A stretch of DNA of 64,000 nucleotides from Trigonopsis variabilis. Lineage: Eukaryota; Ascomycota; Trigonopsidomycetes; Trigonopsidales; Trigonopsidaceae. Positions 5,237 through 47,900 of this stretch are shown in pieces. The stretch covers positions 662,501-726,500 of the forward strand of contig PPXM03000005.1 of NCBI GenBank assembly GCA_003707065.3, written 5' to 3'. Made by a program: the position numbers and the translations under genes. The first letter of the stretch is position 1. Each line of letters begins with the position of its first letter. Under the pieces are notes generated by a model. It saw nothing but the letters and a program-made list of their open reading frames with translations. It made no database searches and was not told the DNA's origin.

Positions 5237-5814
5237 TTAGACTAATTCGTCAGGAGGGCGTGGTTCGTCTTTAAGTGCAGCTAGTTCATGTTGCAAGTCT
5301 GCAATCTGTTTTTGCTGGTAGCGAACCAATTCGGTCAGCTTGCGACCGTGCTCAAAAGCAAGCCGAAGCTGGATCTGCAGACTGTCAAAAGTGGCGTTGA
5401 TTTCATTATCATTGAACCAGTCTTCGATCCCGCTCTCTTCACTAATCGGCTCTTCTTCTCGTTGTCGTTTGGGCGGCCGGTGAGGACTGGTAGTGGGTGA
5501 GAGCACCAGTTGAGGAATGTTATCATCTTTAGACAGCGACTTGGATGGAGAAGTATTTTTGGGTGGAGAGTTCAAGTTGATGGCAACGATATTGTCTCCC
5601 GGTTCAGCCCATTTAAAGAACTTGCACTTATCTTCATTCAGTAAGCGTGACGCGTTCGCATTCCAAAACCTACTCAGGTAACATTTGAAGAAATGGCGGC
5701 CGTTGTTCCTGCCTGGTTTCTTGACCTGCAGGCAGACGGCAGGATTCTATGGGTCAACCTGGACAAACTCATGACGAGACTACTTACATTACAATTGCAG
5801 AGGACTGTAGTCAT
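5237..5814 (-). CDS. Small stand-alone GRF-type zinc-finger protein with C-terminal coiled coil
   Basis: The gene appears only after splicing. Exon 1 (5788-5814) encodes nine residues, MTTVLCNCN. A 41-nt intron (5747-5787, GTAAGT donor) follows, then exon 2 is 5237-5746, giving 178 residues. The first 45 residues form a GRF zinc finger: a CNC pair, then VKKPGRNNGRHFFKC, then CKFFKW. This domain binds single-stranded DNA or RNA and occurs in topoisomerase III, APE2, NEIL3 and TTF2, normally as an accessory domain. Here nothing enzymatic is attached. The middle is Ser/Pro-rich and disordered with a basic PPKRQR patch, and the last 50 residues form a heptad-like helix (FDSLQIQLRLAFEHGRKL). A nuclear nucleic-acid-binding adaptor that dimerises is a reasonable inference; the function is unknown. 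Confidence 0.82.
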
Positions 5815-6236: not shown

Positions 6237-6244
6237 TATAAATA
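6237..6244 (+). promoter_or_regulatory. TATA box of the SYGG-repeat gene
   Basis: TATAAATA lies only 42 bp before the start codon at 6279. The 5' untranslated leader must therefore be very short. Strong TATA elements in fungi tend to mark inducible genes. Confidence 0.6.
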
Positions 6245-6278: not shown

Positions 6279-7047
6279 ATGGGATTCGGGTGAGTGAACA
6301 GCTAGCTGGGCAATTGCGGCTAACCTATGCAGAGAAAAGCTTTTACACAAGATCGGTGATGCCGTGAACAACCAGGGCGGATCCAACAACAACAATAACT
6401 CGTCCTACGGTGGAAATAACGATAACTCGTACGGAGGCAACAATAACAACTCGTCCTACGGCGGTAGCGGCGACAACTCGTACGGAGGAGGAAAGGGCTC
6501 TTCTTATGGAGGAAACAATGACAGCTCCTATGGCGGAAACAACGACTCTTCCTACGGAGGCAACAATGACAGCTCTTTCGGCGGAAACAACAACAGCTCG
6601 TATGGAGGCGGTGACAATTCGTACGGCGGTGGCCGAAATGACTCGTCCTTCGGAAGCAGCGACAACTCCTACGGTGGAAACAACAACTCGTCTTCTTATG
6701 GAGGCAACAATGACAACTCCTACGGCGGAAACAACTCGTCGTCCTTTGGAGGCAACAATGACAACTCCTACGGTGGAAACAACTCGTCTTCCTATGGAGG
6801 TAACAACGACAACTCCTATGGCAGTGGTCGAAATGACAACTCCTATGGAAGCGGTAACGACAACTCCTACGGAGGAAACAATGACAACTCCTATGGAGGC
6901 AGCAACGATGACTCTTACGGTAGCAGCGGCCGTGGTGGCCGTGGAGGCGACAGCTCGTTTGGCGGCGGTCGCGGCGGTGACTCTTATGGAGGAGGCCGTG
7001 GTGGAAACGACAACTACGGAGGAGGCAACCAAGGCGGCAATTGGTAG
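6279..7047 (+). CDS. Prion-like SYGG-repeat protein with N-terminal amphipathic helix and C-terminal RGG motifs
   Basis: Exon 1 (6279-6289) encodes MGF plus two bases. A 43-nt intron (6290-6332, GTGAGT donor, CTAAC branch site) follows, then exon 2 is 6333-7047, giving 241 residues. After a short helix (GEKLLHKIGDAVNNQGG) the whole protein is about 25 degenerate units of the form [S/N/D]S[Y/F]GG followed by N, D, S or G. The aromatic residues recur every 7-10 positions. Charge is almost only Asp until the last 40 residues, where GRGGRGGD, GRGGD and GRGGN make an RGG-type tail. The order of SYGG array then RGG box resembles the low-complexity domains of FUS/TAF15-type proteins, but there is no RNA-binding fold. 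I do not recognise an orthologue. Condensate formation or a stress role is inference from composition and the strong TATA box. Confidence 0.8.
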
Positions 7048-7113
7048 ATTGATTAACTGATTTAAATGTCACTGTTGACAGTGATTTTCTTGTCCCTCGC
7101 TGCATGACGTAAT

Positions 7114-8213
7114 TCATTCAAAACTAGTAGGATCGGCCGTGGCTGGCTCGAAATGCCGGATAAACTGCTCATAGACAGTAAACGATAAGAAGCCGCCAAT
7201 AATTCCATGGCCAAAGCGCCAGCCTGCTCCCGTCCATAACGTTCTAAATCCTTCCCGACTCATAATTTCGTATGCGCATCGAAGACTGTTTCCGTATCGT
7301 TTTCGCGCGTAGGTGCTCTGCATCCGTGTCTTGATGGTGTCGATGGGCTGAGTTAGACCCACGACCAGGGCAGTCGACAGGGCCGCTATACCAAAGTTAT
7401 AGCCGAGCTTGATGAAATGACTCGACTGCTCGTCCACATTAAACAGTTGCTTCAGTAACGTATAACTCGGTAGTCTAATCGACGTTGAAAATGTGCTTCG
7501 GATGATGGTGGGGAAAAACCCTTGGACAAAGCCTAATGGCCCGTTTCTATTATAAACACCTCTGATTCCATTCAGAAACCCGTCGTACTGGAACCGAAAC
7601 TTATTTTGGTTGACTTTCTCTGCCTGCTTCTCAATTAATTGGATCTTGATCACTTCAAACGGCACAACAACACTCGACTCTGCAAGTCCCGTCAGAAAGC
7701 CCGCTATAAGAGTCTGAGATGCACTAAGTTCTTTACTGGGCCCTGATAGTGAGTGCGTCATATAATCGAATAACGAAAATCGCACAAACGTCTTGACCAA
7801 CGACCCAGTCAGCGCAACTGATGCACCCGTATAAGTAGTGAAAAGGTTAAGTTCCGGTCGTACATACTTTGGGATCTTTGGCCTTATCGCCCCTTGTCGT
7901 TTCTTGCCTGGACCCACGTCTAATGCAGGCTCTTTTCCTTTGTCTGGCACCTGGGCCTGGACTCGAGGATCGTACCGTAAAAACAGCTGACTGCGGACTT
8001 TATAATATTCAAATGGGTCTAATAAGAAGAAATGTAAGCTAGATTCTCTTTTTAATACCACTCTTGTACTCACATGTAGCTTGCACCTCGATCACTCCAG
8101 CAGTCAATGCCCCATAAAGACTGGTCCTGTACGACGTCTAAAGACCAAGTTAGACTCTTGTTCACCAAATAAGCCACCGATTCCAACGTTGCTAAGCTCC
8201 GATCCAAAGTCAT
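7114..8213 (-). CDS. Mitochondrial tricarboxylate (citrate) carrier family protein
   Basis: This is a six-helix solute carrier of the mitochondrial inner membrane, closest in pattern to the citrate carrier CTP1. The spliced model is exon 1 8178-8213, exon 2 8074-8137 and exon 3 7114-8018, with introns of 40 and 55 nt, giving 334 residues. The three carrier signatures are all present: YPFEYYKVR (its first Tyr codon is split by the second intron), PFEVIKIQLIEK and QPIDTIKTRMQ. The segment between repeats one and two (VRFSLFDYM) and the end of repeat three (GAGWRFGHG) also match the citrate-carrier pattern. A polar insertion of about 35 residues follows the first signature. The start is the weak point, because intron 1 uses a GTGGCT donor; the open frame continues upstream to 8381. 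It is divergent from ATG44. Confidence 0.82.
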
Positions 8214-9139: not shown

Positions 9140-10823
9140 TTACTGCGGCTGCGCTTGTCTTTGTTGTCTTTGTTGCCCCTGAGCCCCGTTGTTTGCATGG
9201 CCTTGTCCATAAGACCGGCGGCCGTTGCCTCGATAGTTCTGCCGACGCTGGGGACGCTCACTTGGTTGAGATTGGGCGATTTCGGCAAGTTGAGGCCGGG
9301 GAATATTTTCAGGATTATCGTAGACGTAAAGGGATTTGTCGATAGTGGGAGGAATAGGAAGGATTTCGACTCCCAATTCTTGTTCAATCTTGTAGATGTT
9401 GAAACGATCCTCCCAGCAGACGAGGTTGATGGCCAAACCAAGATGACCAAACCGCCCGGAACGACCAATTCGATGGAGATAGGTTTCCGCGTTCTTGGGG
9501 AAGTCGAAATTTATAACCACATTGACTGCTTGGATATCGATACCACGGGTCAAGAGATCGGAACAGACCAGGTTTCGGCAAGCTCCACTTCGAAAGTCAT
9601 GGAATACGCGATTTCGGTCCTTCTGGGGCATTTTGGCATGGCTATAGAAACAGGAGTAACCCAACTCGGTGATCTTCTTGGCCAAGAGTTCAACCCGGCT
9701 GGTAGAGTTACAGAAGATGATCGATTGGTTGATCTGGAGTTTGGAGAAAAGAGTGTTGAGACAATGAACCTTTTCAGTCTCTTCCACAAAAGCATAATAC
9801 TGTGTGATACCACGGAGAGTTAACTCGTCCATGAGATTGATTTCGTAGGGTTTGTTGAGATGTTTATCCATAAAACTTTTGACGGCCAAGGGGAAAGTGG
9901 CACTGAATAGCATGATCTGTCGGTCTTTAGGGAAATAAGCCAGTAACTGTTCAACAATAGGGGTGAATTCGGGACTTAGGAGTTTATCAGCTTCATCCAT
10001 AATGAAGGTAGGACACTGGCTGAAATCGGCAACTTCTTTTCCGGCCAAGTCCAGCACTCGTCCTGGGGTACCGACAATGATATGGACAGAGTCTCTCAAT
10101 CGTAAAATATCATCCTTCAATGTCGTGCCTCCAGTAGATACCATCACATTGACCCCCATATGTTTGCCTAATGTCTTGCAAACTTGAGCGGTCTGCAGAG
10201 CCAGCTCTCGAGTGGGAACCAGAATCAAGGCCTGGATATGATTCAACTTTGGGTTCACCTTTTCCAGCGCGGGGATAACAAACGCCGCCGTCTTGCCAGT
10301 TCCATTCTTGGCTCGCGCCAAGATATCTCGTCCCGTCAATGCAATAGGAATTGACTCCTCCTGGATTGGCGATGGCTTCTCAAAACCAGCTTCAAAAATC
10401 CCCATCAATAATTCTCGTTTCAATAGATACTCCTCAAAATCGGTTCCTTTGGTGGCCGTGACATCCTGATATTAGCTCCACTGTTGCATGATCCAAGATT
10501 CTCCCACTAAAGATAATATTTTTGGCTTTTGTATTCTTCCTTTGTCTCTTCATATCGATATACATATCTTCCAAAGCATTCCCCCATTTCCCCTATACCA
10601 ACTTTCTTTATCAAAAATCGTACTCCTGGCTAGGCACTCCTATTATTTTTCCATCTCGATCCAGGAGAGAACTATCCTCAAATACTCACTTTAGTTTGCA
10701 CTCGTCCATCCTTAGTAGGAAGGTTAAGCTCCTTCTTCCATGATCCATCCCTGCAAAATCAGTAAAATCGCCCCTGCCTTATACTTACACTCCAGAAGGA
10801 ATTGAATTCGCAACGGATGCCAT
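9140..10823 (-). CDS. DHH1: DEAD-box RNA helicase DHH1/DDX6
   Basis: DHH1 represses translation and activates decapping in P-bodies. Exon 1 is 10789-10823, intron 1 is 10751-10788 (38 nt), exon 2 is 10690-10750, intron 2 is 10466-10689 (224 nt), and exon 3 is 9140-10465, giving 473 residues. The first exons supply the conserved lead-in ([24 protein letters not shown]). Exon 3 holds every helicase motif: PSPIQEE (Q motif), AKNGTGKT (Walker A), [19 protein letters not shown], and [10 protein letters not shown]. The C-terminus is Gln/Asn/Arg/Gly-rich ([16 protein letters not shown]), a low-complexity tail suited to granule assembly. Intron 2 is five times the local intron length. The gene converges on ATG44 and lies downstream of SMC6 on the same strand. 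Confidence 0.95.
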
Positions 10824-33285: not shown

Positions 33286-34908
33286 TCATGCTTCGGTTGA
33301 TTCGTTCTGTTCCTCGTTTTGTTCCACTTTTCTTTTGGGTCCCGGTTTCTTCGGTCTCGAGGGCGATCCTGGATCTTTGGCTTCCTTAGCCGCCTCTTTG
33401 GCAGACTCTCTGGCCTTATGTGGAGAAGAGTCCTTGGTTTCCTTTGCAACTTTGGCCTTGCCCCGGCCTCCACTGCCTTTTTTGCGGCCTCGCTTAGACT
33501 CTTTGGCTCCACCAGAGCCAACCGGGTCTGCAACCAGCGGCCCGGAATAGACAAAGAAACCGTCGCTAGTCGCAACCGCAGCTTCCTCCCATGCCAATTC
33601 CGAGTCATCTATAAATGGGTCATTCAGATCATATGTACCTTTCCCTCGCTTCCTGCGCTCAACCGGGCGCCTCTTTTCTTCCTTTTCCTTGTCTTCCTCG
33701 TCATTCTCAGTTGCTGATTCTCCTTCGTCTTCATCCAGCGGCCCTCCTGTCCGGTCAGGGTGTAGCTTGTCGTAGCCATATTTCTCTGTGGCCATGCGGT
33801 CCAGATTCACCAATACGTTATTCCGGTCCTGCAACGGAACGTGGAGGCATATAGTGGGAGAGGAAGGTCCTGGCGCTTTGGTTTGAGGGAAAAGAAGGGG
33901 TTTATTTACCGGCTTGAGGGGTTTGGGTTGTCGTACTGCCTTCTCTTCGCCTTCTTTAGTCCCATTAAGTTTCCGACTCGATTCTTCGCTCGTTTCTTTA
34001 TCCTTTGACGTACACGTTTTCTTAGTGTCATCTTCGGGTACTATTGCTTCTGAGCCATCCGTGTTCAACTGAGATTTGGATGGTTTGTCAGATGTTTGTG
34101 GTTGTGGTTCCTTTTCCGAAGGCTTTTCCGTTCGCTTGCTTCTTGTCTTAGACAGCTTCCGCTTCATTGAAAGTCCGCCGGTCTCAGTTTCGGCAACTAG
34201 ATCTGCAGGCGGCTCCACAGCGACTTCCATCGCAGGTTCCTTTTCAAGCTCTTCTGAAGGTTTTAGGGCCACTTCGAGTGATTCTGGTACAAGCTCTTCA
34301 GAAGGTTTGGAGGCCACTTCGAGTGATTCTGGTACAAGCTCTTCGCTAGGCTTCAATGTCACATCAAGTGACTCTGGCACAAGTTGCTCGCTGGACTTGA
34401 GGGCGACATCGAGTGACTCTGGCACAAGTTGCTCACTGGACTTGAGGGCGACATCGAGTGACTCTGGCACAAGTTGCTCACTGGATTTAAGGGCGACATC
34501 GAGTGACTCTGGCACAAGTTCCCCTGATGGCTCGGAAACCACATCTAAAGACTCGGGAACAAGATCCTCAGACCCTTTTGAAGCCACTTCCATCGGAGGT
34601 TCAGTGATAAGCTGCTCTGAAGACCTGTGAGCAATCTCCATGGCTGGAGCTGGAACCAATTCTTCTGGAGGCTCGACTGTTAGCGATTCGGTTGGCTTCT
34701 GAGCAATTTCCAAGCACGGCTCAGTTACAATTTCCATTGGAGGTTCAGCCACCAGCTCTTTTGGCGGTTCCAGCGCAACATCCATGGGAGGCTCAGCAAC
34801 GATCTCCATTGGTGGTTCTGGCACAAGCTGTTCCGATTCTTCTGGGTTCTTTTCTATTATCGCCTCTATATCCGCCTTACCCGAACGTGCTTGCTTTGTC
34901 TCAGACAT
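33286..34908 (-). CDS. HPC2: HIRA complex subunit HPC2/ubinuclein with N-terminal repeats
   Basis: HPC2 is the ubinuclein-type subunit of the HIR histone H3-H4 chaperone, which deposits histones outside S phase and represses histone genes. The single exon from the ATG at 34908 gives 540 residues; an upstream frame to 35007 has no better start. The Hpc2-related domain near residue 420 is clear: TYDLNDPFIDDSELAWEE followed by DGFFVYSGPL. It precedes a basic, AT-rich-binding-like tail (KRGRKKGSGGRG). The N-terminal 240 residues are acidic repeats. An earlier type reads EPPMEIVA/EPPKELVA, and seven 15-residue units follow of the form SLDVALKSSEQLVPE. The repeats are a 45-bp minisatellite at DNA level. 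The H2A/H2B pair at 43 kb is a likely regulatory target (inference). Confidence 0.88.
   Translation of the reverse strand: MSETKQARSGKADIEAIIEKNPEESEQLVPEPPMEIVAEPPMDVALEPPKELVAEPPMEIVTEPCLEIAQKPTESLTVEPPEELVPAPAMEIAHRSSEQLITEPPMEVASKGSEDLVPESLDVVSEPSGELVPESLDVALKSSEQLVPESLDVALKSSEQLVPESLDVALKSSEQLVPESLDVTLKPSEELVPESLEVASKPSEELVPESLEVALKPSEELEKEPAMEVAVEPPADLVAETETGGLSMKRKLSKTRSKRTEKPSEKEPQPQTSDKPSKSQLNTDGSEAIVPEDDTKKTCTSKDKETSEESSRKLNGTKEGEEKAVRQPKPLKPVNKPLLFPQTKAPGPSSPTICLHVPLQDRNNVLVNLDRMATEKYGYDKLHPDRTGGPLDEDEGESATENDEEDKEKEEKRRPVERRKRGKGTYDLNDPFIDDSELAWEEAAVATSDGFFVYSGPLVADPVGSGGAKESKRGRKKGSGGRGKAKVAKETKDSSPHKARESAKEAAKEAKDPGSPSRPKKPGPKRKVEQNEEQNESTEA
34236..34550. repeat. 45-bp coding minisatellite in HPC2, about seven units
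   Basis: The unit, read on the plus strand, starts GAGTGACTCTGGCACAAGTT and repeats every 45 bp, encoding a 15-residue unit on the minus strand. Three central copies are nearly identical, which suggests recent slippage or unequal crossover. Flanking copies have diverged. Confidence 0.85.
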
Positions 34909-35155
34909 TGCTGTGATACATGGACAAAGTATAGTTTCTACTGGGACACGAGACGACCAACTGCCACCGCGCCAACCCATGGTGACCCTCCGCCCAAACG
35001 GTACCACGTAGATCTAGCTTCATATTCTATCACTGTTGTGCCTACAAATCTACTTTGGTTTCTTACTTCAGCAGCGAGTCAAGCCAGAGAGGCTAGAGTT
35101 TTCTTGCCTGGCAACACCATCTTGAAGCAACGGACCAGAACTGCGACAAACCGTC

Positions 35156-44927: not shown

Positions 44928-47900
44928 TCACCGGCTCAGTCGCCGCCTGCCAGATGATTTGGTTGGAGTTGAAGAGGAAGTAGAAGCGACCCACCACTCC
45001 GACGGGGCTTTTCTTTCCCGCCGCCCAGATCGGGGAGGAGAAAACAGGGCGCCAGAGAAAGAAGGCCTTAGGCGAACCAGGTCACGCAAGCAACGCGGAC
45101 TCCTCTTCGGCTTAGTATCATCATGGCTCAGTTCTACCTTTTCGTCGTAAGGGTCAGCTTTCGACTCTGAGAGACGGTCCGAACCTTGTTCTTGAGAGAT
45201 CGATGTGTGATCAGTCATTGCACTCTCCTTACCGCCTCTACGCTGTCTCTTCCGCAAAGGCTCCTCTGTGCCTGTTCCATTAACGTGATTTCGTTTCAAA
45301 GGGCCATCTTGTCCAACAGGAGGGTGAACAAGATCGGTATTCACTTTTCTGGGGCCAGGAGGTCTCCCTGATCGCTGCATCTGTAAAGGCTCAACAGAAC
45401 CAACACTATCAGCCTGATCTCGCTCGACAAGGCTACCCAATGCAACAGGAGAAATTCCATCCTTGTCGAGAGGTTGTTTTGACTTAGGCTTTCTTCCACG
45501 TTTCTTTGGCAAGGATTCCTCCAATTCAGTAGGAACATGTGTTCCATTAAGCTTCACTTTATCGGGGTTGGGCGGTCTTCCACGCCGTTTCTTCAGAGGT
45601 TTTGCAGGATCAGAAACATATGCTTGATCCTGCGCGACAGACATATCAGCTCCAACAGCCATGACACATCTATCCTTCTTCATTTTATCCGGATTGGGCG
45701 GTCTTCCACGCCGTTTCTTCAAAGGCTTCACGGGATCAGAAACATCTGCTTGATCCTGCGCGACAGACATATCAGCTCCAACGGCCATGACACATCTATC
45801 CTTCTTCATTTTATCAGGGTTGGGCGGTCTTCCACGCCTTTTCTTCAAAGGCTTCACGGGATCAGAAACATCTACTTGACCCTGCGCGACAGAGATATCA
45901 GCTCCAACAGCCATGAAAGATCTATCGTTCTTCATTCTATCAGAGTTGGACGGTCTTCCACGCCGTTTCTTCAAAGGCTCCATAGGATTAGAAACATATG
46001 CTTGATCCTGCGCGACAGAGATATCAGCTCCAACAGCCACGACAGCTCTATCGTTCTTCATTTTATCAGAATTGGGCGGTCTTCCACGCCGTTTCTTCAA
46101 AGGCTTCACGGGATTAGAAACATCTACTTGATCCTGCTCACCAGAGATATCAGCTCCAACGGCCATGACATATCTATCCTTCTTCATTTTATCGGGGTTG
46201 GGCGGTCTTCCACGCCGTTTCTTCAAAGGCTTCACGGGGTCAGAAACATTAACTTGATCATGCGCGACAGAGGAATCAGCCCCAGTAGGGATCACAAGCG
46301 TATCAGTCTTTGTTTTATCCTGGTTGGGTCGCCTTCTAGAGTGTTTCTTCGGCAAAGGTTTCACCAGGTTAGAATCATCTGTTCGCGTGACATACGCATC
46401 GGCCCCAACAGCTAAGTCTCTTCCACTAGTCTTCGTTCTATTCGGGTTCGCCGGTCTTTTAGGTCGTTTATCCGGTAAAGGCCCATCTGCAACTATACTG
46501 CCCGGCTGATGCTGCTTGATAGTGGGACTTTCTCCAACAGGAAAACGAATACCATCGTCGAAAACAGGTCTTGATAGCCCTGGATGACCGAAACGAGCCA
46601 CAGAGGGTCTTTCCCCTGCCAGACCACCCACAAAAGCAGACTTTCCACGTACAAAACTCGATGGGAGAGGAAAAGGATCATCGTCATCGTCAGTGTCAAG
46701 ATTTATCGGGCTCTCTGAAGTGACTTCACACTCTACCTCGGATTCAGCAATGTCGTCCGTATCCAACAGCTCAGAGGTCTTGGACACCGAAACTAGAAGA
46801 GGATGAGCGGGCTCATTGTCCCCCATGACACCATAAGTGGTTTCAGGAGGAATAGTTGATCTGGAAGAAGACGAAAGTGACAGGAGAGCCTTTTTGGCAG
46901 CCTCACGTGACTGAGAGGATGATTTGGATCCAATTTCATGAGTAGGGTTGCCTAAAGGCCGCTTAAGAGCGCCTTTTTCGAAATTCCGAGGTGCTGATTG
47001 TATCGTGTCACCAGAATTTTTTCTGGAATAAGAAGGACGGCTTGATTCTACAGTAGAGAGAGACTCATCGGAAGGCTCGTCTAGTTCAAGGAAGTCAAAA
47101 ATGCCAGGGGGAGGAAGTTCCGCATCATCAGTCTCTAGGATATCGACAAAACCGGGTTGGGCAGCGGTCACTGGCTCCTTGACGTTAGACTTTGAAGTGC
47201 CTTCGGACCTCGGTGAGGGAGGCTTGAAGTGGTCAACATCATCGGGAGCAACCTGGAAAACAAAGGCTAAGTCTTGATCAGACTCATTGTCGTTGGCATT
47301 GGGAGGGATAGGTAGACCACTTTTAGAGGCGCTTTTCCGATAACGACGACGAGTCTGGGGCATCTTCAGAGATTGCGTGGGCTGATTTTTTTTTGAAGAT
47401 CCGGGTTTTTGCCTTTCTGACGGAGCATCTTTCTTCGTAATACCTGCATAACTGGTCGGGATGGACCCGTCAGAGCGAGATTGCGAGGTATTAGAGGGAG
47501 CAACCCAATTCTGAGAGATATCGTGTGACTTAGACAAGAAATCCGTAGCATAGACGATAGAAGGATGAGAAGGATCTTGGTCCTGTTTCGCATAACTAAT
47601 ATTAAGACCACCAGAAGCACTGGAAGCATACAGGGAGTTGTTTGTTATCCTATGCATAGAAGAAGGAACACCAAGAGGGGGTGTTAAAGTTGGCAGAGCA
47701 GATTCGGTAGACGCACTCCTTGTGCTAACACCAAAGCTCAAATTAGGATTAAGAGGAGACTGAGTATGTGGATCATGGTGAGACTGAGAAAGCGGGCTTG
47801 AGCTGACTGACGCTTGTGATGGTGACTTTATCGTAGAGAAAACATGTCGAAGAGACTATTAAATGTCAGAAAATTAAATAAAGGTAAACATACCACGGGC

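Follow-up and report, generated by a model that had tools for sequence, protein, structure and literature searches.

A probable Ddr48-family stress protein with an acidic SYGG-repeat array and an RGG tail in Trigonopsis variabilis

The fungal proteins Ddr48 and Cprp are described in PMC10512284 by the repeats that they carry. Repeats of eight residues, given as 'NNXDSYGS or similar', make up most of Ddr48, and the repeat unit of Cprp is (N/D)(N/D)(N/D)SYGS. Both are disordered and prion-like by PLAAC. The family to which they belong is rich in N, S, D and G, has a low negative GRAVY and, unlike FUS, has SYG as its dominant [G/S]Y[G/S] motif. The tallies of SYG/SYS/GYS/GYG in Table 1 of that paper are 39/0/0/0 for S. 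cerevisiae, 19/0/0/0 for C. albicans and 7/3/2/9 for FUS; SYS or GYG turns up once or twice in some other tabulated fungi, and 13 GYG are listed for Allomyces. The FUS-like grammar of the Ddr48/Cprp family has already been published (PMC10512284, PMC8783092).

Responses of Ddr48 proteins have been described for heat, osmotic, oxidative and DNA-damaging stress and for antifungals (PMC10512284), and the loss of Ddr48 in Histoplasma lowers the survival of oxidants and antifungals (PMC8617954). Overexpression of DDR48 or cprp brings yeast growth down to 37% or 44% of the wild type, respectively, Cprp-GFP is found at septa and at the periphery, and Ddr48 has also been reported from the wall (PMC10512284). 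In C. albicans it has been placed in P-bodies and G-bodies (PMC8617954, citing Jin et al.), and one review states that it is RNA-binding according to high-throughput screens (PMC8783092). Reports on its deletion phenotypes and function conflict (PMC10512284, PMC8783092). Another source groups Ddr48 with Hsp12 and with the hydrophilins Gre1 and Sip18 as stress proteins of high disorder (PMC8923507); the rule given for hydrophilins is a Gly content above 6% and a hydrophilicity index above 1.0 (PMC11277543).

Here, we analysed a window of 64,000 nucleotides of the T. variabilis genome (contig PPXM03000005.1, positions 662,501 to 726,500), which includes a gene for an SYGG-repeat protein (Table 1). 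The unspliced frame from the ATG at 6279 hits a stop after four codons. A scan of open frames and splice pairs (GT within the first 40 bases and AG within the first 140, with a separation of 25 bp or more) listed ten donor/acceptor pairs. One of them restores a protein of 241 residues, with its stop codon at 7045-7047; the other long product, of 231 aa, came from a single pair and runs in another frame. The intron has a GTGAGT donor, a CTAAC and a CAG acceptor. The pattern GTGAGT..CTAAC..YAG occurs 5 times in the window where first-order Markov sequences predict 0.57 (at most 4 in any of 100), and this over-representation supports the splice model and its predicted intron. An antisense ORF of 265 aa (6320-7117) crosses the array and is longer than the gene; we regard it as a side effect of the SYGG repeat.

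Table 1. Features of the SYGG-repeat gene, in positions of the window.
Feature	Position	Strand	Basis or details
TATA box TATAAATA	6237..6244	+	starts 42 bp upstream of the ATG
Exon 1	6279..6289	+	ATG GGA TTC GG; the intron splits codon 4
Predicted intron, 43 bp, GTGAGT...GCTAACCTATGCAG	6290..6332	+	splice-pair scan, intron-pattern count
Exon 2 including the stop; DDR48-like SYGG-repeat protein, 241 aa in total	6333..7047	+	frame, genome search, periodicity, pN/pS
Exon-2 share of the N-terminal segment, probably amphipathic, EKLLHKIGDAVNNQGG, residues 5-20	6334..6381	+	
SYGG repeat array with a period of 8 residues (residues 21-200; net charge -13)	6382..6921	+	
Gly-rich C-terminal tail, residues 201-241, four RGG (one di-RGG), terminal Trp, net charge +1	6922..7044	+	

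A Pfam scan of fifteen ORFs of the window, made for orientation, placed COG6 and a mitochondrial carrier among the neighbours, with POM152 and a SUN-family gene further along. The gene content would suit an ascomycete yeast. DHH1, the P-body helicase, lies at 9140-10471 on the minus strand (best solved match S. cerevisiae Dhh1) and seems to lie two genes downstream of the DDR48-like gene. Ddr48 itself has been reported in P-bodies (PMC8617954), and we consider the proximity of the two genes to be probably a coincidence. Two other ORFs on the minus strand carry tandem repeats. One, of 975 aa (44928-47855), has about six tandem units of 42 residues (126 bp × 5.8), most of them with an AT-hook core like KKRRGRPPNPDKMK; it has no Pfam match at 0.001, and the stretch RRERKAPSEWW near its end presumably resembles a CENP-C-type motif. 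The other (33286-35013) has a HUN/HPC2-ubinuclein domain (Pfam E 1.4e-7) and 45-bp tandem repeats at 34245-34570.

The SYGG-repeat protein was originally predicted to consist almost entirely of about 25 degenerate [S/N]S[Y/F]GG units, and this description holds, with 25 [Y/F]G units at a period of eight residues. After residue 20 there are 25 aromatic residues (21 Tyr and 4 Phe), and each of them is followed by Gly. The residue at -1 is Ser in 24 of the 25, and Gly occupies +2 in 21, while Asp is at -3 in 16 and at -2 in 3. Motif counts are 24 for S[YF]G, 19 for the strict [SN]S[YF]GG, 10 for DNSYG and 4 for RGG; the tetrad SYGG is found 17 times and SYGS 3 times. The spacing between successive aromatics is exactly eight residues in 15 of the 24 gaps, and when the protein is compared with itself identity is 0.51 at lag 8 and falls to about 0.1 at lags 3-6 and 11-14. 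At the DNA level, TRF reports periods of 24, 48 and 96 bp over the array.

The array is maintained at the protein level in the proposed frame. Among the 15 units of exactly eight residues, pS is 0.74 and pN is 0.19, and the resulting pN/pS of 0.26 is the lowest of the six frames. The other five range from 0.35 to 1.97, the next lowest (0.35) being one antisense frame. Over the eight aligned codons, diversity averages 0.27 at codon position 1, 0.27 at position 2 and 0.53 at position 3. These values describe constraint among related repeat copies and hence make no formal test.

We then compared these features with the published description of Ddr48 and Cprp. Like S. cerevisiae Ddr48 (P18899) and Cprp, the protein has SYG-core repeats with an eight-residue period, is rich in N, S, D and G (80.9% together) with a strongly negative GRAVY (-1.56), and is predicted to be disordered. 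Its [G/S]Y[G/S] tally is SYG 20, SYS 0, GYS 0 and GYG 0, so that SYG is the sole motif of this kind. Differences exist. SYGG prevails here over SYGS, Asp mostly stands one residue earlier, and the gene has a C-terminal di-RGG tail, a terminal Trp and an intron within codon 4; these may be features of the lineage or may be common among Ddr48 proteins. The exact NNXDSYGS does not occur in the protein, whereas (N/D)(N/D)(N/D)SYG occurs 8 times, followed by Ser in 3 cases and by Gly in 5: the unit resembles the published ones and is not identical to them.

A query built from the published Ddr48 unit, (NNNDSYGS)8, was searched against the genome. The search scores the best candidates, here four of four, and gave three matches at E<=10 (5.7e-6, 8.5e-6 and 0.005), all of them in this ORF. 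An array of NNNDSYGS scored 641 on the protein, which ranks it 8th among 420 cyclically distinct permutations of its letters (median 403); when residues 21-241 were shuffled, the same array scored 327 on average (sd 20, maximum 380 in 300). The seven permutations that outscore it, led by DNSYGSNN, do so because Asp is shifted by one residue. Searches of the 11.35 Mb genome (15 contigs) for a second copy of the gene found none at E<=10, in an exon-by-exon, six-frame procedure that scores the best candidates and could miss a diverged copy. Judged from these searches, this is the sole detectable DDR48-like gene in the genome. The original prediction recognised no named orthologue, and this part of it is not supported: the features agree with those of the fungal Ddr48/Cprp proteins, and the published unit finds only this ORF. 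The match to the published description makes it very probable that the gene is this species' member of the Ddr48 family, with a role in stress. The likeness of the repeats can also arise by convergence.

The protein has nothing above the cut-off in Pfam (DUF3432 is sub-threshold, E 0.098) or in NCBIfam, and a search of PDB sequences gave no match up to E 1, nor up to E 10 for residues 21-241. A text search of the literature found no paper with both strings SSYGG and DNSYG. Three further identities were considered and rejected. The N-terminal GFGEK, which we take to be reminiscent of the start of Hsp12, raised the possibility of an Hsp12/Hsp9 protein (PF04119); the protein has no Hsp12 Pfam match, and the genome has a separate Hsp12 gene, whose own frame reads DFGDK where the SYGG-repeat protein has GFGEK. 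The DPR dehydrin-like proteins of Aspergillus and Alternaria have a DPR signature that, in the partial description consulted, contains proline, and the SYGG-repeat protein has no Pro. Finally, Ddr48 has been labelled in print as the DEAD-box helicase PTZ00110 (PMC10512284, PMC8617954). The 241 residues contain no Walker A, GK[ST] or DExD motif and have no DEAD match in Pfam. The label on Ddr48 is probably a low-complexity match, an argument that is direct for the SYGG-repeat protein only.

The TATA box near the start codon, from which inducible expression had been suggested, is present, 42 bp before it. Inducible expression is consistent with it, but a TATA box alone shows nothing of the kind. 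The 1 kb upstream of the gene, which extends into the divergent neighbour gene, has one TATAAA, where the window averages 0.19 per kb, and one STRE core, where it averages 0.72 per kb; it also has one ACGTCA, one TTAGTAA and one CACGTG. Heat-shock elements (0.81 per kb across the window), TGACTC and AGGGAT are absent from it. TATA, TTAGTAA-type and CACGTG sites are above the average of the window by one site each, and no enrichment of stress elements was found among the eight motif classes in this 1 kb. The divergent gene (5237-5814, minus strand) contains a stretch like a GRF zinc finger, which narrowly misses the Pfam cut-off (E 4.5e-5). This gene probably starts near 5814, with its first exon placed by eye, and would then have a promoter of about 465 bp in common with the DDR48-like gene. 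Codon use of the SYGG-repeat gene is nearer to that of the genome's GAPDH (0.009 per codon) than in all nine other window ORFs compared (-0.20 to -0.42), as expected of a well-expressed gene, in a measure that rests on few amino acids and on one GAPDH frame as its sole reference. The Asp codon preference of the gene is not shared with GAPDH.

The two ends of the protein differ from the array. The original prediction placed a short amphipathic helix at the start. An amphipathic start is plausible, since the hydrophobic moment of GEKLLHKIGDAVNN is 0.63, a value reached by a fraction of 0.0004 of 5000 shuffles for what is the best of several segments. In a single-sequence AlphaFold2 model that carries no secondary-structure assignment, the first block of ten residues has a pLDDT of 57. 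The same model of 237 aa has a mean pLDDT of 33.9 and a pTM of 0.12, with 222 of the 237 residues below 50, in a setting where single-sequence input alone often yields poor models; the protein is thus predicted to be disordered, with no predicted fold. At the other end, the expected RGG-type tail is there, and is short. An RGG box is made of two or three RGG (di- or tri-RGG) that lie 0-4 residues apart. The four RGG near the C-terminus, at residues 204, 207, 217 and 226, are separated by gaps of 0, 7 and 6, and make one di-RGG and no tri-RGG. The net charge of the whole protein is -12 (pI 4.05). Since the repeat is acidic and the tail is not, any RNA contact would be expected to rest on the tail.

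These features suggest how a Ddr48-family protein of this kind may work. It is most likely cytosolic, and would accumulate in stress or stationary phase if the gene is inducible. Weak self-association may come from the SYG tyrosines, placed at regular intervals along an acidic, strongly hydrated chain rich in Gly and Asn, while the short amphipathic start could attach the protein to the surfaces of membranes or partners. Aided by the RGG tail, it would enter RNA granules and there tune fluidity and RNA storage. It might also act as a hydrophilin-like protectant, overlapping the hydrophilins in action. We regard the chances of this granule mechanism as about even. A stronger version, in which Ddr48 is here a minimal two-part condensate protein, with an acidic SYGG sticker array and its own RNA-binding RGG tail, seems to us rather unlikely. 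If true, one fold-free protein would both scaffold stress granules or P-bodies and recruit RNA to them.

The protein may instead be a hydrophilin-type desiccation or osmotic protectant, derived from Ddr48 or not, which would serve as a hydrated disordered filler or shield with no role in RNA granules. With the hydrophilicity index taken as minus the mean Kyte-Doolittle value, the protein reaches 1.56, together with 29.9% Gly, and both values lie above the thresholds of the hydrophilin rule (PMC11277543). Its predicted disorder, the grouping of Ddr48 with Gre1, Sip18 and Hsp12 (PMC8923507) and the acidic repeats, which do not favour RNA binding, point in the same direction. Against this, 21 Tyr and 4 Phe at near-fixed spacing exceed the needs of a filler, and the protectant job could be done by the Hsp12 family gene of this genome. 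Moreover, the main text of a review of yeast desiccation and hydrophilins has no mention of Ddr48 (PMC11277543). The composition rule is common to Gre1, Sip18, Stf2 and the SYGG-repeat protein, but hydrophilins are a class by composition and not by descent, and the aromatic eight-residue array sets our protein apart from them. We consider this reading less likely than not.

The likeness to FUS had been noted from the start, as aromatic stickers with Ser/Asn/Gly spacers followed by RGG, and this grammar is right with two corrections: the repeats are acidic, and SYG is the only motif of its class. The protein shares with FUS, TAF15 and EWSR1 the Tyr stickers, the small polar spacers and the RGG triplets, but its spacers are acidic Asn/Asp where those of FUS are Gln, and it has one short di-RGG and no RRM or zinc finger. 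It also lacks the mixture of SYG, SYS, GYS and GYG found in FUS (PMC10512284). That no RNA-binding fold is attached, as predicted, agrees with the lack of Pfam and PDB matches and of RNP1-like or helicase motifs in the 241 residues. A FUS-like RNA-condensing protein with no descent from Ddr48, in which the Tyr stickers would drive condensation and the RGG tail would hold RNA, would account for the regular aromatics, the Ser/Gly/Asn spacers, the four RGG and the absence of the exact Ddr48 unit. Yet the acidic, SYG-only repeats, the short tail with a net charge of +1, the lack of any PDB match up to E 10 for residues 21-241 and the lack of a Pfam RNA-binding domain make such an independent origin very improbable.

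A structural protein of the cell wall or septum, made of Gly/Tyr repeats, would agree with the report of Ddr48 in the wall and with Cprp-GFP at septa and periphery (PMC10512284). We judge it very improbable, as the 241 residues lack Cys, Pro and Thr, have no hydrophobic anchor at the C-terminus and show no stretch like a signal peptide (the longest run of A/V/I/L/M/F/W/C is 2 residues). An accidental open frame in a non-coding low-complexity tandem array, to which the several frames open across the array (one antisense for 265 aa) might point, is hardly credible against the pN/pS of 0.26, the splice-restored start, the TATA box and a codon use nearer to GAPDH than that of the other window ORFs.

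On our preferred reading, that of a Ddr48-family member, the gene is no longer the orphan that it was claimed to be: it fits a stress protein that is widely conserved in fungi and whose molecular function is still in dispute. With its SYGG array and RGG tail, it would offer a natural variant for asking whether Ddr48 works through condensates or protects in the manner of a hydrophilin.
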